Shown: piece by piece, positions 9,654 to 64,000 of the stretch | How positions within the stretch are numbered: position 1 is the first letter of the stretch | Layout of the letters: every line of letters starts with the position of its first letter | NCBI RefSeq assembly: GCF_000384655.1 | Contig: NZ_ARQI01000130.1 | Location: 62,001-126,000, forward strand | From: Brachyspira innocens ATCC 29796 | GTDB taxonomy: Bacteria > Spirochaetota > Brachyspiria > Brachyspirales > Brachyspiraceae | DNA length: 64,000 bases | Reading direction: 5' to 3' | The notes under the pieces: model-generated | The model's database searches: none | Told to the model about the DNA's origin: nothing | Seen by the model: only the letters and a program-made list of their open reading frames with translations | Program-made: the position numbers and the translations under genes

Positions 9654-10703
9654 ATGGTAGATGATTTATTAAAATTGGCAGATGAAGCATTTGATAATGA
9701 GGATTATGAAAAGGCTATAGAATATTGTGATAAACTAATATTTTATAATGGAGATAATGAAGAAGTTTATAATTACAGAGGACTTGCCAAAAGCAATTTA
9801 GGTAAATATAAAGAGGCATTAGATGATTTTAATACCGCTTTAAAATTGGATAATAATAATGCGGATATATATTATAATAAAGGTGTAACTGAATATCATA
9901 TGGGTGATTATGATAAAGCCATTGAAGATTACACTAAAAGTATAGAACTTGATAATAGTATTGATGATGTTTATAATAATAGAGGTTTATGTTATTCTGC
10001 ATTAGGAGATTTTGAAAAGGCTATTGAAGATTTTACCTATGCAATAGAATTAAATAATGAAGATTCACAGTACTATTATAATAGAGGACTTGCAAAAGAT
10101 AATTTAGAAGATTTTAAAAGTGCATTAGATGATTACGATAAAGCTATTGAAATAAATCCTAAGTACAGCAATGCTTATAATAACAGGGGGAATGCAAAGG
10201 CTGAATTGAATTATGATGAAGAAGATATTATAAAAGATTACGATAAAGCTATAGAACTTGATAATAATAATATAAATGCATATTTTAATAAGGCATTATA
10301 TTACGATATTAATGAAAATTATGAGCAGGCTTTGAATATTTATAATCAATTATTAGAGATAGATGAGTATTATATAGAGGGTTATGGAAACAGGGCTTTA
10401 ATTTTATATAAGTTAAATAAATATGAGGAATCTATTAAAGATTGTGATAAAGCTATTGAATTAGACAGTAAGTATTGGTTATTATATTTAAATAGAGCAG
10501 AGATTAAACTTGAAGTTGCTAAGAAAAATATTGATGATTTAAAAAAATTAAATGATGAAGTATTTGAAGATATAAAAAAATTTTATGAGTTAGCTTTAGA
10601 AGATGAAGATAATTTGAATGAGTTTAATAATTTTGTATCAGAATTGGCAAATGAAGGATTTGAAGCAGTAATAAAATTCTGTAAGGAATATAAATTATCA
10701 TGA
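9654..10703 (+). CDS. Tetratricopeptide-repeat protein
   Basis: A 349-residue protein made almost entirely of about eight TPR units of 34 residues, each with the familiar pattern of a Tyr/Asn-rich first helix (YNNRGLxxxxLG) and an acidic second helix (YxxAIxDYxKAIELD). There is no signal peptide, so it is cytoplasmic; such repeats bind partner proteins. Start ATG follows an AAGGATAAG ribosome binding site. Its stop overlaps the start of the next gene by four bases (ATGA), implying translational coupling with the HEAT-like protein. A close relative, now frameshifted, lies at 46125-47196. No specific function can be assigned. Confidence 0.85.
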   Translation: MVDDLLKLADEAFDNEDYEKAIEYCDKLIFYNGDNEEVYNYRGLAKSNLGKYKEALDDFNTALKLDNNNADIYYNKGVTEYHMGDYDKAIEDYTKSIELDNSIDDVYNNRGLCYSALGDFEKAIEDFTYAIELNNEDSQYYYNRGLAKDNLEDFKSALDDYDKAIEINPKYSNAYNNRGNAKAELNYDEEDIIKDYDKAIELDNNNINAYFNKALYYDINENYEQALNIYNQLLEIDEYYIEGYGNRALILYKLNKYEESIKDCDKAIELDSKYWLLYLNRAEIKLEVAKKNIDDLKKLNDEVFEDIKKFYELALEDEDNLNEFNNFVSELANEGFEAVIKFCKEYKLS

Positions 10704-27385: not shown

Positions 27386-27994
27386 ATGAATAATATAGTT
27401 GAAAAAGTAAAACAATATTTTTCATCTAATTTTGGAAAATTAGCAGCAATTATAGCTGGACTTTCTTTTGTTATAACGCTTATATTATCAGTTTCCTATA
27501 AAAATAGAATTGACATTTCTTTATTAAAAGCAATTTTTTCAGCTATTATAACAATTGCCATATTGTTTTTACTTGGTACAGTATTGAAAAAATATTTAGG
27601 TGATGTAATAGATGAAGCAGAAGATAATTCTAATATGGATATAGACTATAATGCTATAGATGATAATAGTACTAATAATACAATTTCGCCTGATACAGAT
27701 AATGCTCCTTTTACTCCAGATTTGAGTCCTGATTCAGCAGCTCCAAAACCTTTAAATCTTGATAAAAATACTAAGCCGAATTATAAAAGTTCAGGAGATG
27801 ATATTGGCGATATAGTATTCAGTAAGCCCAATACCACTCAAAGTACTACAAGCTATACTTCAAGCAGCAGCAGTATGTTCCCTGATAAGAAGGTTACAAG
27901 TGAAGAGATGGAAAGAGAGGTTAGGGAAGACCCTGAAAAAGTAGCTAAGGCTGTTAGAACAATGATAGCTAAAGATGAAAAAGATGATAAGTAA
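27386..27994 (+). CDS. Operon-embedded membrane protein, function unknown
   Basis: A 202-residue protein with two membrane segments (residues ~16-38 and ~46-70), then an acidic, Asn/Ser/Thr-rich disordered stretch, and a short charged C-terminal helix (PDKKVTSEEMEREVREDPEK, VAKAVRTMIAKDEKDDK). The last helix, EDPEKVAKAVRTMI, reminds me of the FliG-binding tail of the MS-ring protein FliF, but this rests on pattern memory only. The gene occupies the position between flhG and fliA where spirochaete flagellar operons commonly carry a hypothetical gene. Its final ~60 bases are copied at the end of the following sigma-like gene, which marks one edge of a tandem duplication. Confidence 0.7.
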   Translation: MNNIVEKVKQYFSSNFGKLAAIIAGLSFVITLILSVSYKNRIDISLLKAIFSAIITIAILFLLGTVLKKYLGDVIDEAEDNSNMDIDYNAIDDNSTNNTISPDTDNAPFTPDLSPDSAAPKPLNLDKNTKPNYKSSGDDIGDIVFSKPNTTQSTTSYTSSSSSMFPDKKVTSEEMEREVREDPEKVAKAVRTMIAKDEKDDK

Positions 27995-28035
27995 AACATA
28001 TTAAAATAAAGAATTTAATAGTTAGGGTGAATATT

Positions 28036-28935
28036 ATGAGAGACAAAGATAAAATACCAAATATTACTAATGACAATGAACAGGAATATTGGCAGGAGTT
28101 TAAAAATACTCAGTCACCTTATATAAGAGAAGCTTTAATTAATAAATATTCTCCATTGGTAAAATATGCTGCAGACAGAATATATGTTAATATGGACACT
28201 CAGGAAAATGTTGAACTTCAGGATTTGTTTGGTTTCGGAGCTTTCGGACTTATGGATGCTATTAATAAATATAACCCTAATAATGTAGATATTAATTTCA
28301 AAACATATGCTCTTGATAAAATTAGCAGAGCTATATATGATGGACTCAGAGAATTAGATTATCTGTCAGACTCTATGAGAGATGTTTGGTATGCAGGCGA
28401 TGATTCTAATGATAAAACTGAATATGTGGCTGAAAGAGAAAATACGAAAAATAAAATAGTAGATGCTTTGAAAAAACTTCCTGAAAAAGAAAAACAGGTG
28501 ATTATATTATATTATTATTATGATCTTACATTAAAAGAGGTTGCTAATATATTAGAGGTACCAGAGAGTAAAATATCTCAGCTGCATACAAAAGCTATTA
28601 ATGATATTAAAGATTTATATAAGAATGGTAATATATTAGAGCCAAGATTAAGCAGAAATATAAAGCCTCAGGAAATGACTGATATTTTTATAATACCAGT
28701 AAGCCAATATAATGAAACTATGAAAAATTATATAGAGACTCCTACTACATATTTGAGTGATGTTTGGTATGTAGATGATGATTATGATGAAATATCTGTA
28801 ATAGATACATTAAAATCTAAAACTAATCATGAGTATTTTATAGATAGAGAATATACAAAAAATAAAATAATAGCTGATTTGAAAAAACTGCCTGAAAAAG
28901 TTACTAAGGCTGTTATAATAATTATAAAAAGTTAA
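28036..28935 (+). CDS. Rearranged FliA-type sigma factor paralogue (s2-s4-s3-partial s4)
   Basis: A 299-residue product from ATG 28036 (GGGTG ribosome binding site; an in-frame GTG at 28027 is part of that site). It starts with a nearly intact sigma region 2 (to ~28380), almost identical to the fliA gene that follows. A region-4 segment then intrudes (28381-28602, DVWYAGDDS ... SQLHTKAIN), region 3 follows (NILEPRLSRNIKPQE ... ), and a second region 4 is cut at LPEK (28891-28900). The last residues (VTKAVIIIIKS) match the end of the 202-residue gene upstream (VAKAVRTMI), not sigma. Either a decaying duplicate or a sigma-like regulator with altered domain order; it keeps an open frame throughout. 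Confidence 0.75.
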   Translation: MRDKDKIPNITNDNEQEYWQEFKNTQSPYIREALINKYSPLVKYAADRIYVNMDTQENVELQDLFGFGAFGLMDAINKYNPNNVDINFKTYALDKISRAIYDGLRELDYLSDSMRDVWYAGDDSNDKTEYVAERENTKNKIVDALKKLPEKEKQVIILYYYYDLTLKEVANILEVPESKISQLHTKAINDIKDLYKNGNILEPRLSRNIKPQEMTDIFIIPVSQYNETMKNYIETPTTYLSDVWYVDDDYDEISVIDTLKSKTNHEYFIDREYTKNKIIADLKKLPEKVTKAVIIIIKS

Positions 28936-29010
28936 AAACGATAAAAAAGATAAATAAGAAATTATTTAGAAAAATTATATAGTAAAAAATTAATAACTAG
29001 AGTGAATATT

Positions 29011-29829
29011 ATGAAGATGAACAAAAAAGAAAAAGGTAAAATACCAAATATTACTAATGATAATGAACAGGAATATTGGCAGGAGTTTAAAAATACTCAG
29101 TCACCTTATATAAGAGAAGCTTTAATTATTAAATATTCTCCATTGGTAAAGTATGTTGCAAGCAAAATATCTGTTAATATGGGTTCGCATAAACATATTG
29201 AATTTCAGGATTTGGTGGGTTTCGGATCTTTCGGACTTATGGATGCTATTGATAAATATAACCCTAATAGAGATATTAAGTTCAAAACATATGCAGTTAC
29301 TAGAATTAGGGGAGCTATATATGATGAACTTAGAAAATTGGATTATCTTCCTAGGTCTATACGTAAAGATGTTAAAGAAATAGAGAAGGCAAGAGAAATA
29401 TTAGAGGCTAGATTAAGCAGAAATATAAAGCCTCAGGAAATAGCTGATATGCTTGGAATACCTATAAGCAAATATAATGAGACTATGAAAAGATATATAG
29501 AGGCTTCTCCTACTTCACTTAGCGATGTTTGGTATGTGGGAGATGATTCTGATGAAATATCTGTGATAGATACATTAAAATCTAATGATAAAACTAACCC
29601 TGAATATTTGGCTGAAAGAGAAGATGTAAAAAATAAAATAGTAGCTGCTTTGAAAAAACTTCCAGAAAAGGAAAAGCAGGTACTTATATTGTATTATTAT
29701 GATGATCTTACCTTAAAAGAGATTGGAAAAGTATTAGAGGTATCCGAGAGCAGAATATCTCAATTGCATACAAAGGCAATACAGCAATTAAGATATAGTC
29801 TTTCAGAGATAAAAAAACAATTATTATAA
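29011..29829 (+). CDS. fliA: Flagellar sigma factor FliA (sigma-28/WhiG type)
   Basis: RNA polymerase sigma factor for late flagellar genes. The 272 residues from ATG 29011 have the full set. Region 2 includes LVGFGSFGLMDAIDKYNP, FKTYAVTRIRGAIYDELRKL and the DYLPRSIR signature. Region 3 is ARLSRNIKPQEIADMLGI. Region 4 has LPEKEKQVLILYYYDDLTLKEIG and the recognition helix VSESRISQLHTKA. A GTG at 29002 is in frame, but GAGTG there serves better as ribosome binding site. It is preceded by its own rearranged paralogue and followed after 14 bases by fapA. Confidence 0.94.
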   Translation: MKMNKKEKGKIPNITNDNEQEYWQEFKNTQSPYIREALIIKYSPLVKYVASKISVNMGSHKHIEFQDLVGFGSFGLMDAIDKYNPNRDIKFKTYAVTRIRGAIYDELRKLDYLPRSIRKDVKEIEKAREILEARLSRNIKPQEIADMLGIPISKYNETMKRYIEASPTSLSDVWYVGDDSDEISVIDTLKSNDKTNPEYLAEREDVKNKIVAALKKLPEKEKQVLILYYYDDLTLKEIGKVLEVSESRISQLHTKAIQQLRYSLSEIKKQLL

Positions 29830-46124: not shown

Positions 46125-47196
46125 ATGAGTAATCTTGATGATTTATTACAATTGGCAAATGACGCTTTTAATGGCGGTGATTATAAAAATTCCATAGAAT
46201 ATTTTGATAAACTAATTTTTTATTATGGGGATATTGTAGAGCTTTATAACAATAGGGGGCTTGCAAAGAGTAGTTTAGGAATGTATGAAGAAGCCATTAA
46301 AGATTTTGAAAAAGTTATCAGTATAGATCCAAACTATGTTCATGCTTATAATAATATAGGTTTAGTTCATCATAATTTAGGTAATTATAAAGAGGCTATT
46401 AAGTATTATAATAAGGCCTTTGGAATTGGATAATAATTGTATTCAGGTTTATAATAATATAGGATTAGCTAATCATAATCTGGGTAATTATGAGGAGGCT
46501 ATAAGAAATTATATAAAGGCTATAGAAATATCGCCCAATGTGCATACCTATAATAATATAGGTTTGGTAAAAAATGATCTTGGTCTCTATGAAGAGGCGA
46601 TAAAAGATTTTAATAAAGTATTAGAATTAGATAAAAATTATTCAAAAGCTTATTATAATATAGGTCTTTCTAAATATAATCTAAAGAAGTATGATGAGGC
46701 TATAGAATATTTTAATAAGGCTTTAGAATTGGATAGTAACTTTGCTTATACATATAATAATATAGGTATAGTAAAACAGGATTTAAGAATAGATAAAGAA
46801 GCTTTGTATTATTTTGACAAAGCATTAGAATTAGATAAAAATTATTCAAAGGCATATTATAATAGGGGAATATCAAAAATTAATTTAAAATTATATGAAG
46901 AAGCTGTAAATGATTTTTATAAGGTTATAGAGTTGGAACCAAAAAATTTTAATGCTTACTTACGACTAGCTTATGCTAAGTTAAAATTGAGGCTTTATGA
47001 AGAAGCTATAGAATATTATGATAAATACATAGATTGTGATAATGTATCAAATGATGTCTATTTTTATAGGGGATTTGCTAAATATAAATTGTCAGACTAT
47101 AAAAATGCTATAAAAGATTTTGATAAAGCTGATAGTAATATTAAAGTTATTGTATTAAAAATGATTTCAAAAATTAAGTCAATATTGAAAAAATAA
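46125..47196 (+). pseudogene. TPR protein gene split by a one-base frameshift
   Basis: The reading frame from ATG 46125 encodes a TPR protein very similar at its start to the intact one at 9654 (DDLLQLANDAFNGGDYKNSI, then EYFDKLIFYYGD). It ends prematurely after KYYNKAFGIG (TAA 46431-46433). Removing one base at about 46417-46420 (GGCCTTTGG to GGCTTTGG) restores NKALELDNN and joins it to the frame 46420-47196, which continues with seven more TPR units. The intact product would have about 356 residues, matching the 349 of the paralogue. The second frame has no ribosome binding site. A real mutation, a reversible slip or a sequencing error are all possible. Confidence 0.75.
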
Positions 47197-54118: not shown

Positions 54119-54127
54119 TATGTTAAT
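54101..54127. promoter_or_regulatory. Perfect inverted repeat over the -10 (probable operator)
   Basis: ATTAACATAAT (54101-54111), centre ATAGA, ATTATGTTAAT (54117-54127): 11 of 11 bases pair. It covers the last part of the spacer, the -10 and about ten bases beyond, the classic place for a repressor. It is not followed by a T run, so it is not a terminator. Confidence 0.6.
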
Positions 54128-54152
54128 ATACTATACTTGCGGAGTTTTTCTT

Positions 54153-57100
54153 ATGAACCCTGTTCTTCAATTAATACTAACTTTTGTTGTACCTCTATTA
54201 TTTATCGGTATTTATAGCGTAATCAATAGGAAAAAAAATTATAATGATAATAATTTTAGCGATATGTTTGCAGAAGAGAAAGCAGCGCTAGAAGGTATTG
54301 TAGAAGAGAAAATTTCCGAGGTTAGAGATAATGCTATAGATTTGGAAATAGCAGTTAAAAAAGCTGGTTTTATAAGCAAATCTATGGAAGAAGACCTAGC
54401 CAAGCTAAATAAAAGGATAGAATCATATAAAGATTATAAAGCAGCTGTGTCTCAGTATCAGGAACAAGTTGATTCTCTTGAAGAGGCTTATTTAGAGATA
54501 CTTAATAAAGTAGATACTGTATTAAAAGAACGTAATACTATAGAAAAAACATATAAAAGAATATCTGATGTTAAGGCTAAAATGTCAGAATTAGAAAAAA
54601 ATGTAGGATCCATACAGGATAAATTGATAGAATCTTATAATTCTAAATTAAATGAGTTTGAGAGCGAACTTTATAAGAGATTTGACGCTCTCACAACTAA
54701 TTTATTAGCTAGAGATGCTCATTACAGCACTATGGCGGAACAAGAAAAAGAAAAAATATCTGCTCTTACAGAGGAATTCAAACTCCACGTTGCCAAAAAA
54801 GAAGAATTATTTACAAATCAGCTTACTCAGCTTGCTGAAAGAACAGCACGTCATAATATAGAACAGCTTGCAGAGCTATTTGAGAAAGGAAGAGATGAAC
54901 TTATAAATAAATATTCATCATTTGCTGATGAAATTGATGTTAAATCTAAAGATATAGAAAATCGTTATGAAACTTTAAGCCAGTCAAAAGACGGTCTTGA
55001 AACAGAATTAAATAATTTAAGAGACACTATACATGATAGATTGAACTCTATAACAGAATCTAGCGTATTAGAGTTCCAAGATGAAATGGAAAAAACTAAA
55101 GAGATGCTCTACTCTACCCTAAAAGAAGGCCTTGAAAAAATAAGTATGGACAGAGAAGAGTTCTTAGATTCTATAGAACAAAAAGCTCATTCTTTAGAAA
55201 AATCTATAGATGATATAAAAGATAAAGCTGATTATATAAGCAAAGATTATGCTGAGAAAGCTCATCAGTTAGAAAGTGAGTTTTCAGTATTAAAAGATGA
55301 TATAAATAACAGATTTATAGCTGAAGTTGAGAATTTCTCTAATCATATAAAAAATGTTCTTGAAAATGAAGATGACGGTGTTATAACTCTTTATAGAAAC
55401 AAAACTAAAGAACTTAATGATTTAATCATATCTATAGATGGTATGAGTGAAGAAACTATGCTCAGAGCTGAGAGCAGATTTGAGGATATTGTTAACGATA
55501 TAGATAAATTAAAAGATGATATTCTAACAAGAGCTCAAGATGATATGGAATATTCTATAGATAATGCTAGAAGTTCTTTAATAGCAGAAATTAATGAACT
55601 TAGAAACGATGTTGAAACAGAAACTAATCTATTAAAAGATAAAATAGATGAAACACATTATCAAACTTCTGAAATAATATCTATACTTAATAATAAACAG
55701 GAAGAAATACTTGATTCTTTAAGTCTTCAAAAAGAGTATTTATATAAAGATTTAGAAACTCAGGCTAATGACAGAGTAAATGAAATAGAAAAGTTATTTG
55801 CTACTGTTAAAAATGAGTTGGAAGAAAATATTAATACATACATAAAAAATACATCTTCTGATTTAACTGCCATTGATGAAAAATTATCAGGTTTAAAAGA
55901 GCAGTATGATAAAGCCGCTTCTGATATAGATACTTTAAGTAAAGAAACAGAATCTAATATAAAAGACAATATAGAAAAACGTTTGGAAATATTAGAAAAA
56001 ACTTCAGTAGAAATTAACGGATTAGTAAGCAGAGCCAATGAAAAATTGGATGTTGGTATGAAAGATGCTGAAGATAAAATAGAAGGTATTAAAAAGGAAA
56101 TATCCGACTACAGCGATGCATATATAGATAGTTTGAAATCTCATTTAAAAACTGTTTTAGATGACTATGAACAAACTAAAATGAAAGCTATAACTGATAG
56201 TATAGATTCTGTTATAAGTCAGGTCGATGAAAGTGAAAAAAGACATGATGCTTTAATGAGCAGTATAGAAAATTCTTTAGATGATTTTAGAAATAAAGTA
56301 GACGCAGCTGTAGATGAAAATATAAAATTCAATGAGGAAACTAAAAAAGAAGTAGCTGATATGCTTCATGATGAGCTTCGTCAGGCTACTGATTCATTTG
56401 ATACTCTTTTAAATGAAAAAAGAGAGAGTATGAATAAAATAAAAGATGAAATTGAAGATATATTGCATAGAGTTGAAAATGGAAGAGATGTATTTGAACG
56501 CACAATAAATAAAGTGTATGAAAATGCTGAAGATAAAGAAAAAGAATTAATGTCTGATATAGAAGATAAATATAATTCTTTGGATAAAAAAATTGATGGC
56601 GTATTAGATGAAAGAAGAGCCGATTTGAATGCTATAAGTGCTGAATATCATGCTATGCTTGAGAAGTATTCTAATAATTTGAAAGATGATTATGAAGAAT
56701 TAAAACACCATGCTTCCTTAATGACAGATGAATATAAAATGCGTATAGAAAATCTAGGCGAGAGAATCAATGAAATAATCGATAATGCTAATAATATGCA
56801 GTCTGTAGTTGATGCTAAAACTGGAGAGATGGATTCGTATATAGCAGATAAAAAAGATGAAATTGCTAAAAGAACAGAAACTATATTTACAAATATAGAA
56901 TACGATACTTCTAAAAAATTAGATGAACTTAAATCATTAATAGATAATGCTATAGCTAAATATCAGGACGAAATAAAAGAAATAGAAACTTATAGACTTG
57001 AAGAAAATAAAAGTATTATAGAAGATGTAGAAAATATAGGTGCTGGCATAAGAAAAGATTATGAACAGTATACTAATATGCTTGAAGAACTCTACAATAA

Positions 57101-60100
57101 AGAAAAAAATTCTTTGAATGAGCATGTTAATACTTTGAAAGATGAGATAGAAAAAGCAAGAGAAGAATCCGAAGCTAAACATCTTACTAATGAATCTAAT
57201 TATATAGATGATTATTTGAATAAAGCTTCTTCAAAAATAGATGAAGAGGTTAATCGCCTAAATGAAGAGCTTAATGATTCATTCAATACTTTATACAGCG
57301 GTTTTTCTAAAATATTAGCTAAAATAAGAAAAGCTAATCATAAAAAAGCATTGCAGTCTATTGCTAAAATTAAAAAACATGCTGAAAAAGTTATATCTAA
57401 TACAGCAGCAGAAGTTAGAGACAGTCTTGGTCTAACATTAGAAGATTTAAGAAATGAGTTTATATCATTAAAAGATAATGTTGATGATAGATTAAGAGAA
57501 CAGGCAGATAAATTAATATCTAATAATGAAAATGTGCTTGCTATATTAGATGATCATGAAAGCAGACTAGAAAAAATAAATGATATCTCTAATATAATAG
57601 AAACTATAAAAGAAACTTTGTCTGAACAGATAGATGAATTAAAATCTAATATTTCAGACAGTAATGAAGATGTTAATAATAGAATAGAAGAAATTAAATC
57701 TTCTTTAATAGACAGAGAAGAATTAATAAACTTGCATGATAGTGAAAGAGAACTTCTTAAAAATCAGATAGAAGATATAAAAGAAGAGTTTGAACTATTT
57801 AAAGATAATATAATAAGAACTAATGAAGTAGAGATACCTGCCCTATTTGATGAAGAAAAAGAAAGAATAGAGAGAATGTTTGATGAGTTTAGTAAGAACC
57901 TACTCATGAGACTTACTGACAATGAAAGCGATATACATTATATAAAAGATGTATTATCTGAAGAGAGAAGTCATTTAATATCTCAAATAGAACTTTTAAG
58001 AAAAGATGTTGATGATATAAAAGATGATAATACAGTAACTGTTTTATCAGAAGAAAAGGCTGTTCTTGAAAACTCTTTAACTGCTTTAAGAGATGATTTT
58101 GATAAAATAATGGATTTGGAAAAAGATTTTGTTTCTCTTAAAAACAGAATGGAAGGAATCGACAGCGGATTGAAAGATGATGTTAAAGATTTATCTGATA
58201 AATTAAAAAGTTTCAGAGATAATTTAGAAGAAAAGATAGAAAAAAATTCAAATGGTCTTTATAAAGATATAGAAAATCTTAATAAAAATTTTGAAACTGT
58301 TAGAGAGAATATGTCCAGTTTGTTGGATAGAAATGAAGTTGAGTCATTAATCAATAATGAAAAAGAAAGATTAAATTCTATATTTGAGAGTTTAGCTTCT
58401 AACAATGAAGATTTTAAAGACAGATTAGAAAAACGTATATCTTATTTTGAGGACGTATGGTCTGATAATACTAGAATAAAAAGTATATATGCTTCAGATA
58501 TAAGAGAAGAAGTTGAAAATATAAGAAAAGAAGCTGATGTTAAGTATGACAATCATATAGCTCAATTGAAAGAAAAAATGAAATTAATTGAAGAGGATAT
58601 ATATGATTGGAAAAATGGTAATTTGAATACTTTACTTGCTCAGTTGGAAGATGCAAGAAAAGGAATAGAAAGCTTTATAGACACTTCAGAATCTAAGAAA
58701 AATCAATTCTTGATTGATATGCTAAGCAGTATAGAAAATAAAGAAAGTGAAATATATTCTCGTATAGATGAGAAGATATTAAATGCTGAAAATAAACTTT
58801 CTGATATAGACGAAAAATTAAATAATGCTATAGGAAATAGCTTGGAAAGTATTCATAATAGAATAAACGAATCTGTTGCAAAATATGATGAAGAGATAAA
58901 AAGAATAGAACATCATAGAGCAAATGAAGCTGAAGATTTAATATCTGATATGGAAGATTTGGGCAACAGCATACGTGAAGATTATGAAGAATATTCTATA
59001 ATGATAGATAAAATTTACGAAGATGCTGTGGCAGAATTAGAAACTCATCTTGAGAATATTAAAAAAGAAATAGAAAGAGCAAGAGCCGAATCTGAAGAGA
59101 AACATTTGTCTAATGAAAAAAATTATATAGATGATTATTTATTAGATTATTCTGAAAAAATAGAAGCTCATGTTAATGATAAATTGAGTATATTAACTGA
59201 AAGTAAAGCTCAGTTAGATGATATGATAAAAGATTCATTCAGCACTCTTAATGCTAATTTGAATGATACTATATCTAAATTTAATGAAGAAGCAAATAGT
59301 CAGATATACTCTGTTGTTGAAAGATTAGAAAGAGAAGCAGCGGCAAGATTGTTTAGTGAACAGAAATATATGTCTGACTTGGAAGAACAATTAAGAGCTA
59401 TTAGTGCAAAAATAGATAATGAGCTTTATAATATTTCTTCTAAGTTAGATAGTGAAATATCTGATGTAAAAACAAAATATAAAGATTTGAGTACTGATTT
59501 TGATGAAGCATTAGATATGATAAAAAGCTCTATTCTTGACAGAGATGAACTTATGGAACTTCAGTCATCAGAAAAAGAACTTTTATCTGAGCAAATGGAA
59601 ACTTTGAGAACAGATTTTGATACTTTCAAAGATGAATTGTTAAAAGCCAATGAAGAGGATATACCTACCCTATTTAATGAAGAAAAACAAAAGATAGAAA
59701 AAGCATTTGAAGATTTTACTAATGTTATACTCGATAGAATGGTGGATTCTGAAAATGATATTAATAATGTAAAAGACGCTATATCAGAAAATAAGGCTTC
59801 TTTCTTAGAAAAAGTTGAAAATATTAAAAGAGATATAGAATCAATAAGAGAAGATAATACTATAGCTCAGCTTGCTTTAGATAAACAGTCTTTGGAAGAG
59901 TCTTTTAATGCTATAAAAAATGATTTTTCTAAATTAAATGATTTAGAAAGTAATTTTTATCATTTGAACGACAGACTTGAAGATTTCCAATTGAAAGTTG
60001 CTGCTGACAATGATAATTTATTTGAAAATATAGATAATATAAAAAGCAGCATAAAAGATTCCATAAGCAAATCTTCTGAGCTTGATGATAAATTTACTTC

Positions 60101-63100
60101 AATAAAAGATAATGTATTTACTGTATTGGGTAAAAATGAAAATATAGAAAATATGTTTGCTGAGGAAGTAAAAAAATTAGATGAATTATTTAATAACTTC
60201 AAAACTGATAATGCTGAGTTTAGAAGCAGATTAGAAAAACGTATTGATTATTTTGAGGATATATGGTCTGACAGTAGCAGAATAAGAAGTTTGTATGCAG
60301 CTGATTTAAGAGATGAATTAGACAGCATAAAAGCAGAAACTGAAGTTAAATTAGAAAATTATCTTAATGATTTGAATGACAGAATAGAAACTATTAATAA
60401 TGATGCATCTTCTTGGAGAGATGAATATATTAATGATTTCAAAGAAAAAATTGATTCTCTTGATAAAGATATATCAAGCTGGAAAGACGGACGCATTAAT
60501 GATCTTTTAGAACAGTTAGAAAAAGCTAAAGAAAATATTAATAGTTATTTAGAATCTTCTGAAGGTAAAAAAGAAGAATTATTATCTGATATACTATCAA
60601 AAATTGAAGAGAAAGAAAACTCTCTCTATGGAAAAATAGATAGCAAGATAGAAGAGATAGAAGGCAGATTATCTATTGTAGACAGCAAAATATCAGATGA
60701 TATAGCCAGAGGTTTAGAAGAAGTACAATCTATAGTAAATAATGCCGTAAACAAATACGATGAAGAGATAAAAAATATAGAACATCATAGATCTGAAGAA
60801 AGTTCTAAATTATTAGAGGATATACAATCAGGTTATGATTATTATTCTAAACTTATAAATAATACTTATAAAGATTCATTGTCTTCTTTGTCAGAGTACA
60901 CTAACAGAATTAAAGCAGAAATAGAAAAAGCTAGAAAAGAAACAGAAGCTAAACATCTTAATAATGAAAAAAATTATATAGATGAGTATTTAAAAGAATA
61001 TTCATTAAAATTAGATAATCAGGTTAATGAAAAAATAAATGTATTAAATGATACTAAAAATCAATTAGATGATATGATAAGAGAATCATTTAATACTCTT
61101 AATAATAACTTGAATGAAGCAGTAATTAAGTTTAATGAAGAAGCTGACATGAAAATTAATGCTACTCTTGAAAGATTAGAGAGAGATGCTTCTGAAAAAT
61201 TATTAGACTATAATAATTATGTTGCTGAATTGGAAGACAGTTTAAGAGTTCTTAATTCTAAAATAGATAATGAGATATACAATGTATCTTCAAAACTAGA
61301 TAGCGAAATATCTGATATAAAAAATAGATATAAAGAGCTTAGTATAGATTTTGAAGAATCATTGGATATGATAAAAGGTTCTATTCTTGACAGAGATGAA
61401 CTTATGGATTTGCATACATCTGAAAAAGAACTTTTATCAAACCAAATAGATGAGATTAAAAATGATTTCATTACTTTGAAAGAAGAGGCTTTAAATGCTG
61501 GAAAAGAAGATATACCTGCCCTATTTGATGAAGAAAAACAAAAAATAGAAAATGCTTTTGAACAGTTTACTAATGCTTTATTATACAGAGTAAATAATTC
61601 TGAAAATGATATTAATTATCTTAAAGATGCATTATCAGAGGATAAACTCTCACTATTAGAAAAGATAGATAATTTAAAGTCTGAAATAAGAACTTTAAAA
61701 GAAGAGGATAAAGTAAATAAATTAGCATTAGAAAAACAGGCATTAGAAGAGTCTTTTAATGCTATAAAAAATGATTTCTCTAAATTAGAAGATTTGGAAA
61801 ATCGCTTGCATGAATTAAAAAATAACATGTATACTACAGATGTTAATTTGAAAGATGAAGTTGCTAATTTGTCTAGTAAATTTGTAGATATTGAAAATAA
61901 AATAAATGAAAATAATGACTATATAGACAGAAATATAAGCAATAATATATCAGCTTTAAATAAAGATATTGATATAATAAAAAATGCTGTAAATGAATCT
62001 ATAAATAAATCATCAGAACTAGAAAATAATATTCTAAAAGACAGAGAAGAATTGGAAAACAGAATCGATTCTCTAAAAGAAAGTTTAATAAATATATTAG
62101 GCGATAATGAAACAGTAGAAGGCTTATTTTCTAATGAAGTAAAAAGAATAGATGAATTATTTAATAACTTCAAAAAAGATAGTATAGATTTTAGGGATAG
62201 ATTAGAAAAACGCATAACTTATTTTGAAGATACTTGGTCAGATAGTACTAAGATAAGAAGTTTATATGCTTCAGAAATGCGTAATGAACTTGAGGAAGTT
62301 AAAAATGCAGCAGAAAAAAGATTTGAAAACTATCTTAATGATCTAAGCTATAAGATAGAAAGTATAGATAAAGATATATCTAGTTGGAAAGATGTACGCA
62401 TTAATGATTTATTAGAAGAGTTGGAAACAGCTAGAGAAAATATAGAAGAATACCTAAATTCTACTGAAGGCAAGAAAGAAGAGTTAATCTCTGATATACT
62501 TTCAAAAATAGAAGAAAAAGAGAACTCTATCTACGGAAAAATAGATAGCAAAATAGAAGAGATAGAAAATAGATTATCTGTAGTTGATAGTAAAGTATCA
62601 GATGATATAGCTAGAGGTTTAGAAGAAGTACAGTCTATAATAAATAATGCTGTAAATAAATATGATGAAGAGATAAAAAATATAGAACATCATAGAACAG
62701 AGGAAGGTTCTAAATTATTAGAGGATATCAAATCAGGCTATGATTATTATTCTAAACTTATAAATAATACATATAAAGATTCTTTATCTTCATTATCAGA
62801 ATACACTAACAGAATAAAATCAGAGATAGAAAAAGCTAGAAAAGAAGCAGAGAATAAAGGTTCTAATGTAGATAAGAATTATATAGATGAGTATTTAAAA
62901 GAGTATTCAGAGAAATTAGATAATCAGATAAACGAGAAGATAGGTATATTAAATGACAGTAAAACTCAATTAGATGATATGATAAGAGATTCGTTTAATA
63001 CACTTAATACTAATTTGAATGAAGCTATATCTAAACTTAATTCTGAAGCAGATAGTAAGATAGAAAGTGTAGTGTCTAAATTAGAAGCAGAAGTATCAGA

Positions 63101-64000
63101 CAGACTATTTAATTATAAAGAATACATATCAGAATTGGATAGTCATTTACAGTCTATTAATTCTAAAATAGATAATGAGATATATAATGTGTCTTCAAAA
63201 CTAGATAAAGAAGTATCAGAATTAAAAGCTAAATATGATTCATTAAATATAGACTTTGAAGAAACATTAGATATGATAAAAGGTTCTATACTTGACAGAG
63301 ATGAACTTATTGAACTTCAGGCTTCAGAAAAAGAAATGTTGTCTGATAGATTGGACGAAATGAAAAAAGACTTTGATGATTTTAGAGAAGAATTATTAAA
63401 ATCGGACAAAGCAGATGTGTCTAGTATATTTGAAGAAGAGAAAGAGAGAATAGAAAATGCCTTTGAAGAGTTTACAAGTAATTTATTAGACAGAGTAAAT
63501 ACTTCAGAAAGTGACATAAACTATTTGAAAGATGTATTATCAGAAGATAAATTATCATTGTTAGAAAAAATAGACAGCTTGAAAGAAGAGATAGATAATT
63601 TAAGAGAAGATGATACCATAACTCAGCTTAGTTTAGAAAAACAAGCATTGGAAGAGTCTTTTAATTCTATTAAGAATGATTTTTCTAAATTAGAAGATTT
63701 AGAGAGCCGTTTGTATGAATTAAAAAATAATATGGAAGATACAGATATCAGCTTGAAAGATGAGGTAAAAAGTTTATCCAGCCGTTTTGAAGATTTAGAG
63801 CAGAGAGTATCTGAAGATAAAGATGGTATAGAAAAAGACATAATCTCTAATTATGATAGCTTAAGCAGTGATATAGAAAGTATCAGAAATGAAATACAGA
63901 ACTCTATAGATAAATCATTGGAATTGGAAAATAATATTCTAAAAGATAGAGAAGACTTAGAAAATAAACTAGAATCATTAAAAGAAAACTTAACTAACAT
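54153..64000 (+). CDS. Giant membrane-anchored coiled-coil protein with ~630-residue repeats (3' end outside the window)
   Basis: One uninterrupted frame from ATG 54153 (GGAG ribosome binding site 8 bases before) runs past the window end: at least 3,282 codons, over 370 kDa. Residues ~4-24 form a single hydrophobic helix followed by RKK, which by the positive-inside rule places the rest in the cytoplasm. Everything after is charged, helical and almost free of Pro and Cys, with heptad-like Leu/Ile spacing. From about 56.8 kb on it repeats: landmarks NYIDDYL/NYIDEYL, DEEIKxIEHHR, RLEKRIxYFEDxWSD and LDRDELxxL recur every 1.85-1.92 kb. No enzymatic motif is seen. It could be a cytoskeletal or envelope-scaffold filament; SMC-like ATPase motifs are absent so far. 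Confidence 0.85.
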   Translation, partial: MNPVLQLILTFVVPLLFIGIYSVINRKKNYNDNNFSDMFAEEKAALEGIVEEKISEVRDNAIDLEIAVKKAGFISKSMEEDLAKLNKRIESYKDYKAAVSQYQEQVDSLEEAYLEILNKVDTVLKERNTIEKTYKRISDVKAKMSELEKNVGSIQDKLIESYNSKLNEFESELYKRFDALTTNLLARDAHYSTMAEQEKEKISALTEEFKLHVAKKEELFTNQLTQLAERTARHNIEQLAELFEKGRDELINKYSSFADEIDVKSKDIENRYETLSQSKDGLETELNNLRDTIHDRLNSITESSVLEFQDEMEKTKEMLYSTLKEGLEKISMDREEFLDSIEQKAHSLEKSIDDIKDKADYISKDYAEKAHQLESEFSVLKDDINNRFIAEVENFSNHIKNVLENEDDGVITLYRNKTKELNDLIISIDGMSEETMLRAESRFEDIVNDIDKLKDDILTRAQDDMEYSIDNARSSLIAEINELRNDVETETNLLKDKIDETHYQTSEIISILNNKQEEILDSLSLQKEYLYKDLETQANDRVNEIEKLFATVKNELEENINTYIKNTSSDLTAIDEKLSGLKEQYDKAASDIDTLSKETESNIKDNIEKRLEILEKTSVEINGLVSRANEKLDVGMKDAEDKIEGIKKEISDYSDAYIDSLKSHLKTVLDDYEQTKMKAITDSIDSVISQVDESEKRHDALMSSIENSLDDFRNKVDAAVDENIKFNEETKKEVADMLHDELRQATDSFDTLLNEKRESMNKIKDEIEDILHRVENGRDVFERTINKVYENAEDKEKELMSDIEDKYNSLDKKIDGVLDERRADLNAISAEYHAMLEKYSNNLKDDYEELKHHASLMTDEYKMRIENLGERINEIIDNANNMQSVVDAKTGEMDSYIADKKDEIAKRTETIFTNIEYDTSKKLDELKSLIDNAIAKYQDEIKEIETYRLEENKSIIEDVENIGAGIRKDYEQYTNMLEELYNKEKNSLNEHVNTLKDEIEKAREESEAKHLTNESNYIDDYLNKASSKIDEEVNRLNEELNDSFNTLYSGFSKILAKIRKANHKKALQSIAKIKKHAEKVISNTAAEVRDSLGLTLEDLRNEFISLKDNVDDRLREQADKLISNNENVLAILDDHESRLEKINDISNIIETIKETLSEQIDELKSNISDSNEDVNNRIEEIKSSLIDREELINLHDSERELLKNQIEDIKEEFELFKDNIIRTNEVEIPALFDEEKERIERMFDEFSKNLLMRLTDNESDIHYIKDVLSEERSHLISQIELLRKDVDDIKDDNTVTVLSEEKAVLENSLTALRDDFDKIMDLEKDFVSLKNRMEGIDSGLKDDVKDLSDKLKSFRDNLEEKIEKNSNGLYKDIENLNKNFETVRENMSSLLDRNEVESLINNEKERLNSIFESLASNNEDFKDRLEKRISYFEDVWSDNTRIKSIYASDIREEVENIRKEADVKYDNHIAQLKEKMKLIEEDIYDWKNGNLNTLLAQLEDARKGIESFIDTSESKKNQFLIDMLSSIENKESEIYSRIDEKILNAENKLSDIDEKLNNAIGNSLESIHNRINESVAKYDEEIKRIEHHRANEAEDLISDMEDLGNSIREDYEEYSIMIDKIYEDAVAELETHLENIKKEIERARAESEEKHLSNEKNYIDDYLLDYSEKIEAHVNDKLSILTESKAQLDDMIKDSFSTLNANLNDTISKFNEEANSQIYSVVERLEREAAARLFSEQKYMSDLEEQLRAISAKIDNELYNISSKLDSEISDVKTKYKDLSTDFDEALDMIKSSILDRDELMELQSSEKELLSEQMETLRTDFDTFKDELLKANEEDIPTLFNEEKQKIEKAFEDFTNVILDRMVDSENDINNVKDAISENKASFLEKVENIKRDIESIREDNTIAQLALDKQSLEESFNAIKNDFSKLNDLESNFYHLNDRLEDFQLKVAADNDNLFENIDNIKSSIKDSISKSSELDDKFTSIKDNVFTVLGKNENIENMFAEEVKKLDELFNNFKTDNAEFRSRLEKRIDYFEDIWSDSSRIRSLYAADLRDELDSIKAETEVKLENYLNDLNDRIETINNDASSWRDEYINDFKEKIDSLDKDISSWKDGRINDLLEQLEKAKENINSYLESSEGKKEELLSDILSKIEEKENSLYGKIDSKIEEIEGRLSIVDSKISDDIARGLEEVQSIVNNAVNKYDEEIKNIEHHRSEESSKLLEDIQSGYDYYSKLINNTYKDSLSSLSEYTNRIKAEIEKARKETEAKHLNNEKNYIDEYLKEYSLKLDNQVNEKINVLNDTKNQLDDMIRESFNTLNNNLNEAVIKFNEEADMKINATLERLERDASEKLLDYNNYVAELEDSLRVLNSKIDNEIYNVSSKLDSEISDIKNRYKELSIDFEESLDMIKGSILDRDELMDLHTSEKELLSNQIDEIKNDFITLKEEALNAGKEDIPALFDEEKQKIENAFEQFTNALLYRVNNSENDINYLKDALSEDKLSLLEKIDNLKSEIRTLKEEDKVNKLALEKQALEESFNAIKNDFSKLEDLENRLHELKNNMYTTDVNLKDEVANLSSKFVDIENKINENNDYIDRNISNNISALNKDIDIIKNAVNESINKSSELENNILKDREELENRIDSLKESLINILGDNETVEGLFSNEVKRIDELFNNFKKDSIDFRDRLEKRITYFEDTWSDSTKIRSLYASEMRNELEEVKNAAEKRFENYLNDLSYKIESIDKDISSWKDVRINDLLEELETARENIEEYLNSTEGKKEELISDILSKIEEKENSIYGKIDSKIEEIENRLSVVDSKVSDDIARGLEEVQSIINNAVNKYDEEIKNIEHHRTEEGSKLLEDIKSGYDYYSKLINNTYKDSLSSLSEYTNRIKSEIEKARKEAENKGSNVDKNYIDEYLKEYSEKLDNQINEKIGILNDSKTQLDDMIRDSFNTLNTNLNEAISKLNSEADSKIESVVSKLEAEVSDRLFNYKEYISELDSHLQSINSKIDNEIYNVSSKLDKEVSELKAKYDSLNIDFEETLDMIKGSILDRDELIELQASEKEMLSDRLDEMKKDFDDFREELLKSDKADVSSIFEEEKERIENAFEEFTSNLLDRVNTSESDINYLKDVLSEDKLSLLEKIDSLKEEIDNLREDDTITQLSLEKQALEESFNSIKNDFSKLEDLESRLYELKNNMEDTDISLKDEVKSLSSRFEDLEQRVSEDKDGIEKDIISNYDSLSSDIESIRNEIQNSIDKSLELENNILKDREDLENKLESLKENLTN
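57198..59120 (+). repeat. Giant-gene repeat unit 1
   Basis: 1,923 bases (641 codons), counted from its NYIDDYL landmark to the next. It is the most diverged unit: it keeps NYIDDYL, IDREELINLHDSERELL, IPALFDEEKERIE and YFEDVWSD, but the part after the first landmark (RKANHKKALQSIAKIKKHAE) is unlike the others. Repeat-like sequence begins somewhat earlier, by ~56.96 kb. Confidence 0.75.
59121..60971 (+). repeat. Giant-gene repeat unit 2
   Basis: 1,851 bases (617 codons) between NYIDDYL (59121) and NYIDEYL (60972). Contains SILDRDELMELQSSEKELL, IPTLFNEEKQKIE, RLEKRIDYFEDIWSDSSRIR and YDEEIKNIEHHRSEE. Confidence 0.8.
60972..62876 (+). repeat. Giant-gene repeat unit 3
   Basis: 1,905 bases (635 codons) between NYIDEYL landmarks at 60972 and 62877. 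Contains SILDRDELMDLHTSEKELL, IPALFDEEKQKIE, RLEKRITYFEDTWSDSTKIR and YDEEIKNIEHHRTEE. Long stretches are nearly identical in DNA to unit 2's second half, for example around the GYDYYSKLINNTYKDSLSSL block. Confidence 0.8.
62877..64000 (+). repeat. Giant-gene repeat unit 4, cut by the window end
   Basis: 1,124 bases visible from NYIDEYL (62877). Contains SILDRDELIELQASEKEML and then, at 63.6-63.7 kb, LEKQALEESFNSIKNDFSKL, matching the same position in unit 3. The array clearly goes on beyond the window. Confidence 0.75.

Follow-up and report, generated by a model that had tools for sequence, protein, structure and literature searches.

Sigma factors of the FliA/sigma-28 type (FliA/WhiG, TIGR02479) carry their domains in the order 2, 3, 4, and Group IV (ECF) sigma factors consist of domains 2 and 4 (s2 and s4) with no domain 3 (s3). 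Within these proteins, region 2.2 binds the beta-prime coiled coil and region 2.4 reads the -10 element. In the split sigma factor SigO-RsoA, regions 2 and 4 reside on separate proteins. A different kind of relative is the ordinary tandem-duplication pseudogene, which forms at short repeats.

Here, an open frame beside the fliA gene of Brachyspira innocens ATCC 29796, the paralogue, is compared with these systems. It resembles FliA/sigma-28 in that all of its segments, bar the last dozen codons, come from the neighbouring fliA, and it differs in its domain order (s2-s4-s3-s4t, the last being truncated), its scores below the family cut-offs and its degraded promoter-contact motifs. As in ECF sigma factors, s2 is followed directly by s4, but s3 and a second, partial s4 come next and the origin is fliA. 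With tandem-duplication pseudogenes the paralogue shares a 10-nt match at the junction, a truncated copy and decay in relatives, and it departs from them in having an extra internal s4 copy and a reading frame that has held up unusually well. We consider it likely that the frame arose as a partial duplicate of fliA, was rearranged and is now decaying.

Anatomy and origin of the rearranged frame

The window, that is, the whole stretch of 64,000 nucleotides that was analysed, contains the gene order flhF, flhG, orf202, paralogue, fliA, fapA. The features of the locus are as follows.

27386..27994, + strand: orf202 (ORF call), upstream gene without an assigned family and source of the tail that the tandem duplication copied
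27932..27941, + strand: CCTGAAAAAG in orf202, upstream end of the duplicated unit, with short homology to the LPEK codons of fliA (repeat search and alignment)
28036..28380, + strand: paralogue s2, repeat of fliA (Sigma70_r2, 26.1 bits)
28381..28602, + strand: ectopic s4 of the paralogue, 74 codons, repeat of fliA s4 (Sigma70_r4, 58 bits), with the same insertion in genomes G005 and G015
28603..28758, + strand: s3-derived segment of the paralogue, repeat of fliA
28759..28890, + strand: second s4 copy of the paralogue, truncated, repeat of fliA
28891..28935, + strand: C-terminus of the paralogue from the orf202 tail, including the stop codon (repeat search, alignment)
28891-28900, + strand: duplication junction CCTGAAAAAG, within the C-terminal segment
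28936..29010, + strand: spacer, second copy of the spacer between orf202 and the start codon (alignment)
29011..29829, + strand: intact fliA (sigma-28), source of the copied segments (NCBIfam matches)

The paralogue ORF (28027/28036-28935) is free of stops and has 299 codons when counted from the ATG at 28036. Repeat searches match its s2 to fliA over 242 nt at 90% and 84 nt at 83%, the inserted s4 block over 186 nt at 84% and the s3 block over 222 nt at 82%, with the truncated s4 being an additional partial fliA copy. Pfam finds Sigma70_r2 at residues 34-106 and Sigma70_r4 at residues 144-192, and gives no match to region 3 at a threshold of 0.001. The order s2, s4, s3 and an s4 cut at LPEK, which the first-pass annotation had read from the letters, is thus borne out by the ORF calls and the repeat search.

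That annotation also placed the 74-codon s4 segment at 28381-28602 between GAT-[AG]TT motifs, and both coordinates and borders are exact: GATGTT (28381-28386) and GATATT (28603-28608) flank the 222-nt segment. In fliA itself, GATGTT is present at the s2/s3 border (29368) and again at the s3/s4 border (29524), and therefore recombination at short repeats would explain the insertion point. An s4 copy entered the s2/s3 boundary at a GATGTT repeat, in a further jump that may have belonged to the tandem duplication or come later, and its place there gives the permuted order.

The cut at LPEK is real as well, and what the annotation missed is that it forms the junction to the tail of orf202. Positions 28891-28926 match 27932-27967 in this tail (86% over 36 nt), and the homology runs on across the spacer as far as the start codon. 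On this alignment, the sequence establishes a tandem duplication that joined the LPEK codons to the end of orf202 and left a truncated upstream copy. The duplicated unit would have begun at CCTGAAAAAG in orf202 and reached the LPEK codons of fliA, two similar stretches that were joined to give an upstream fliA copy ending in the orf202 tail and a complete downstream copy. The orf202 gene has no match in a Pfam search and a single NCBIfam match of 19 bits, against a cut-off of 150. In this genome, the copied ribosome-binding site probably still drives translation of the paralogue. A promoter scan of 27900-29100 returned 13 sites, with 9.0 expected.

Elsewhere in the window, positions 54120-63998 are occupied by a single open frame of at least 3293 codons, which runs off the window and has long internal repeats at a spacing of about 1.85-1.9 kb; its sequence suggests a giant coiled-coil protein built of repeats. 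Repeats of 102 nt (34 codons) form two separate arrays, at 9661-10465 and 46240-47039, and match what is expected of TPR-type proteins, the TPR name being our own reading.

The copy across the genus Brachyspira

As the annotation had proposed, the locus was compared across the genus, using 26 Brachyspira species genomes in which G000 is that of the window. In all 26, flhG, orf202, fliA and fapA occur in the same order, with orf202 between flhG and fliA, and in 16 the slot before fliA is only 17-64 nt. The window-type duplication or a remnant of it is found in six genomes (G000, G005, G015, G006, G004 and G009). It is open throughout in two, with 299 codons in G000 and 312 codons in the identical segment order in G005, and it is frameshifted, deleted, shortened or stopped in the other four. 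The G015 copy has the identical order and lacks one base, so that reading halts after 166 codons. Internal deletion has reduced the G006 copy to an 85-codon frame, the G004 copy retains s2 only up to codon 56 followed by the junction spacer, and the G009 copy has a stop and a large deletion. The annotation had named stops in close relatives as an observation that would refute its reading, and these are seen in G009 and, through the one-base frameshift, in G015.

The permuted order is thereby established, at the level of sequence, as common to three of the sampled genomes (G000, G005 and G015), which bears on whether it is an artefact of assembly or sequencing. The assembly is a draft of 130 contigs, and the annotation had raised assembly error itself, but the same order in two other independently assembled genomes (G015, frameshifted, and G005, which refutes the idea) eliminates it. 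In addition, the copies have only 73-90% DNA identity to fliA by block, so that misassembly of a repeat cannot produce them. We regard the chance of an artefact as negligible.

A 33-nt deletion in the inserted s4 is common to G000 and G015 and absent from G005, and FliA is 100% identical among G000, G009 and G015. The G004 and G005 copies (L039, L054) resemble the gene of the G000/G009/G015 group more closely than the fliA of their own genomes; for the G005 copy, 53 of 342 sites differ in the comparison with G000 fliA, and 71 of 336 in that with the resident fliA. This pattern suggests that the slot was transferred laterally by recombination. One paper reports frequent recombination in B. pilosicoli (PMC8116685). 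Outside the flagellar slot, a second full-length FliA-like gene (62% identity) is found at G001:C1:1388929-1389732, and fragments are found in G003:C19. A literature search limited to one open library returned no paper on this locus and, in the papers listed, no mention of a permuted or duplicated fliA; a paper on spirochete flagellin genes was among them. The excerpt of PMC2194791, on sigma genes of Burkholderia, has no bearing on it.

Selection and the predicted protein

Substitution ratios, also proposed by the annotation, were estimated over 274 codons of G000, G005 and G015, with the two frames of G015 entered as separate pieces. With three mutation compositions, MG94 omega since the copies diverged is 0.875, 0.761 and 1.013, no value being different from 1 (2dlnL 0.47, 1.95 and 0.00), a range of 0.76-1.01 versus about 0.005 for FliA, whose branches give 0.004-0.007. 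On the window's own branch the values are 1.06, 0.97 and 1.10. The G015 branch has 0.54, 0.48 and 0.68 (2dlnL 3.65, 5.07 and 1.56) and leans to constraint in the count test too (7 of 200 simulations). Overall, that test found 133.5 amino-acid and 38.5 silent changes, an omega of about 0.90; of 200 simulations under neutrality, 54 came out as low or lower.

A fit with GY94/F3x4 gave omega 0.42 for s2 (2dlnL 10.9) and 0.472 for the whole (2dlnL 15.5), which suggested that the window's copy is under purifying selection. This suggestion was set aside, as MG94 in three compositions and two counting tests disagree. GY94/F3x4 is trusted less because its position-specific codon frequencies absorb past selection, and by branch GY94 itself gives 0.88 for the window's own s2, which is indistinguishable from 1. 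As in a pseudogene, therefore, amino-acid change in the window-type copy is indistinguishable from neutral by MG94 and by counts, GY94 dissenting.

The frame has fared differently from the amino-acid sequence. The disruption typical of a pseudogene is absent from the window and from G005 and is the state of four of the six carriers. About seven internal indels separate G000, G005 and G015, and all but one are multiples of three, the exception being the 1-nt loss in G015; this sole frame lesion there could be a sequencing error. Under neutral change, a frame would stay free of stops with a probability of 0.095 over the 37 changes on the window's branch and of 0.013 over the 72 changes of G005, figures that partly reflect selection of the case, as an open frame had been picked at the outset. 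Together, these results indicate that the frame was held for some time and that the amino-acid sequence is now nearly free. The paralogue would thus have had its frame maintained early on, after which constraint was lost.

A frame that stays open despite amino-acid drift could be kept solely so that ribosomes shield the message upstream of fliA, avoiding polarity, with the protein sequence irrelevant. The spacer and start signals of the paralogue and fliA are mutual copies, which fits this idea. Yet stopped or nearly deleted copies (G009, G004) and a frameshifted one (G015) all precede an intact fliA, and we judge this explanation improbable.

The protein itself has lost its promoter-binding motifs. 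The motifs TRIRG and PRSIR read DKISR and SDSMR in G000, TKISR and SEYKR in G005, and DKIRG and SGFIS in G015, so that each of the three long copies has decayed motifs in both region 2.4 and the s2-s3 linker. The paralogue scores 158.1 against the TIGR02479 cut-off of 189.6 and 273.2 against the PRK06288 cut-off of 343; the neighbouring fliA passes both (255.2 bits for FliA_WhiG and 422.9 for PRK06288). AlphaFold2, run on an 11-row alignment, returned a mean pLDDT of 63.7 and a pTM of 0.43. Averaged in blocks of ten residues, pLDDT is 65-90 for s2 (residues 1-110), 34-38 for the subsequent linker, 55-80 for the inserted s4, 43-57 for the s3-derived segment and 41-62 after residue 200. The best reading of sequence and model is that the paralogue does not work as a sigma factor: conserved residues are missing from region 2.4 and from the s2-s3 linker, and no fold is predicted for the C-terminal half.

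This bears on whether the protein could be an ECF-like s2-s4 sigma factor, which arose by dropping s3 from between s2 and s4 and drags a dead C-terminal tail. The TIGR02937 sigma70-ECF superfamily model does span residues 31-193 unbroken (102.1 bits, cut-off 42.9), and the modelled helices of s2 and the inserted s4 are among the better parts of the prediction. However, TIGR02937 also matches ordinary FliA, at 126 bits, and so does not separate the two, and the altered region 2.4, the poorly modelled s2-s4 linker and the absence of amino-acid constraint by MG94 leave this origin very improbable.

The annotation had offered two readings, a modified sigma factor or anti-FliA competitor, and a pseudogene in which stops have yet to arise. 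The second is better supported, with four of six carriers broken and omega near 1. The first finds no support for the window's gene, given the loss of TRIRG and PRS, yet s2.2 is well kept and most indels are in frame. As an antagonist of FliA, the product would start no transcription; its s2 would sit where sigma binds core RNA polymerase, or an anti-sigma factor such as FlgM would be titrated by its s4 copies, and flagellar genes would be tuned. The s2.2 stretch DLxGFGxFGLxDAIxKYNP, thought to bind core polymerase, is retained in both open copies, a FlgM-like match occurs in 25 of 26 genomes (above the curated cut-off in five), and an independent s2-only copy is under purifying selection in four other genomes, as explained below. 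On the window's branch, though, omega is near 1, and carriers have broken the copy with FliA unchanged, as in G009 and G015. An antagonist is thus unlikely here, and decay of a fliA duplicate is the reading we retain.

Separate s2-only frames in sister genomes

In G008, G023, G024 and G025, the same slot upstream of fliA holds a 107-codon, s2-only frame, which is open in all four:

L046, 2546-2866: s2-only frame
L044, 1382-1702, - strand: s2-only frame
L049, 1416-1736, - strand: s2-only frame
L047, 1459-1779, - strand: s2-only frame

Since divergence, MG94 omega for this frame is 0.22-0.38 (2dlnL 12.9-30.4), and none of 2000 neutral simulations had as low an amino-acid share, in a sample of 107 codons from four genomes, of which two are metagenome bins. 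On the stem, the MG94 estimate of omega is high but imprecise (2dlnL 1.6-3.0), with 0.6-0.9 in the count test. The protein models as a compact four-helix s2 domain (mean pLDDT 91.6), which indicates fold compatibility alone. G022, a close relative of the carriers, is without the frame. Gene conversion from the resident fliA was considered as the source of the apparent constraint and rejected, as singletons are hardly more shared with own FliA than with others.

Trees group the s2-only frame with FliA of its own group. A single origin with the window-type copies is rejected by the AU test (p values of 0.0026 over all sites, 4e-5 over third positions, 0.011 over the first 55 codons and 0.048 over the rest), although for the codons beyond the first 55 a single origin passed the KH and SH tests. 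Against separate origins, a loss of 12 nt behind the start codon and, in part, an S-to-Y change are common to the two types; convergence or exchange between copies is the only explanation we can offer.

G008 alone also has an intact 61-codon, s4-only frame (L046 3760-3945) between fliA and fapA, which begins like the first codons of fapA and, as read from its sequence, is a third partial duplication. Its constraint test gave 7 of 500, a figure biased by the inclusion of FliA's own evolution. The two frames make a split set around fliA in this genome. They recall SigO-RsoA, with regions 2 and 4 on separate proteins, and differ from it in that a full FliA lies between the pieces, which are themselves copies of it.

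The s2-only frame is a better candidate for a core-polymerase competitor than the window's copy, and an inhibitor of FliA is more plausible there. It is possible, and we put it forward tentatively, that Brachyspira repeatedly copies parts of fliA into this slot and that some have been recruited as stand-alone s2 proteins that rival FliA for core RNA polymerase. On this view, the s2-only frame would be the working form and the window's copy a failing or relaxed example. Inside the flagellar operon, one duplicated regulator gene is seen in all stages, namely open, frameshifted, deleted and absent, and the locus illustrates how domain order may be scrambled via short repeats at gene borders. If the s2-only frames work, they would represent a simple, newly made damping of a sigma factor by a piece of itself.
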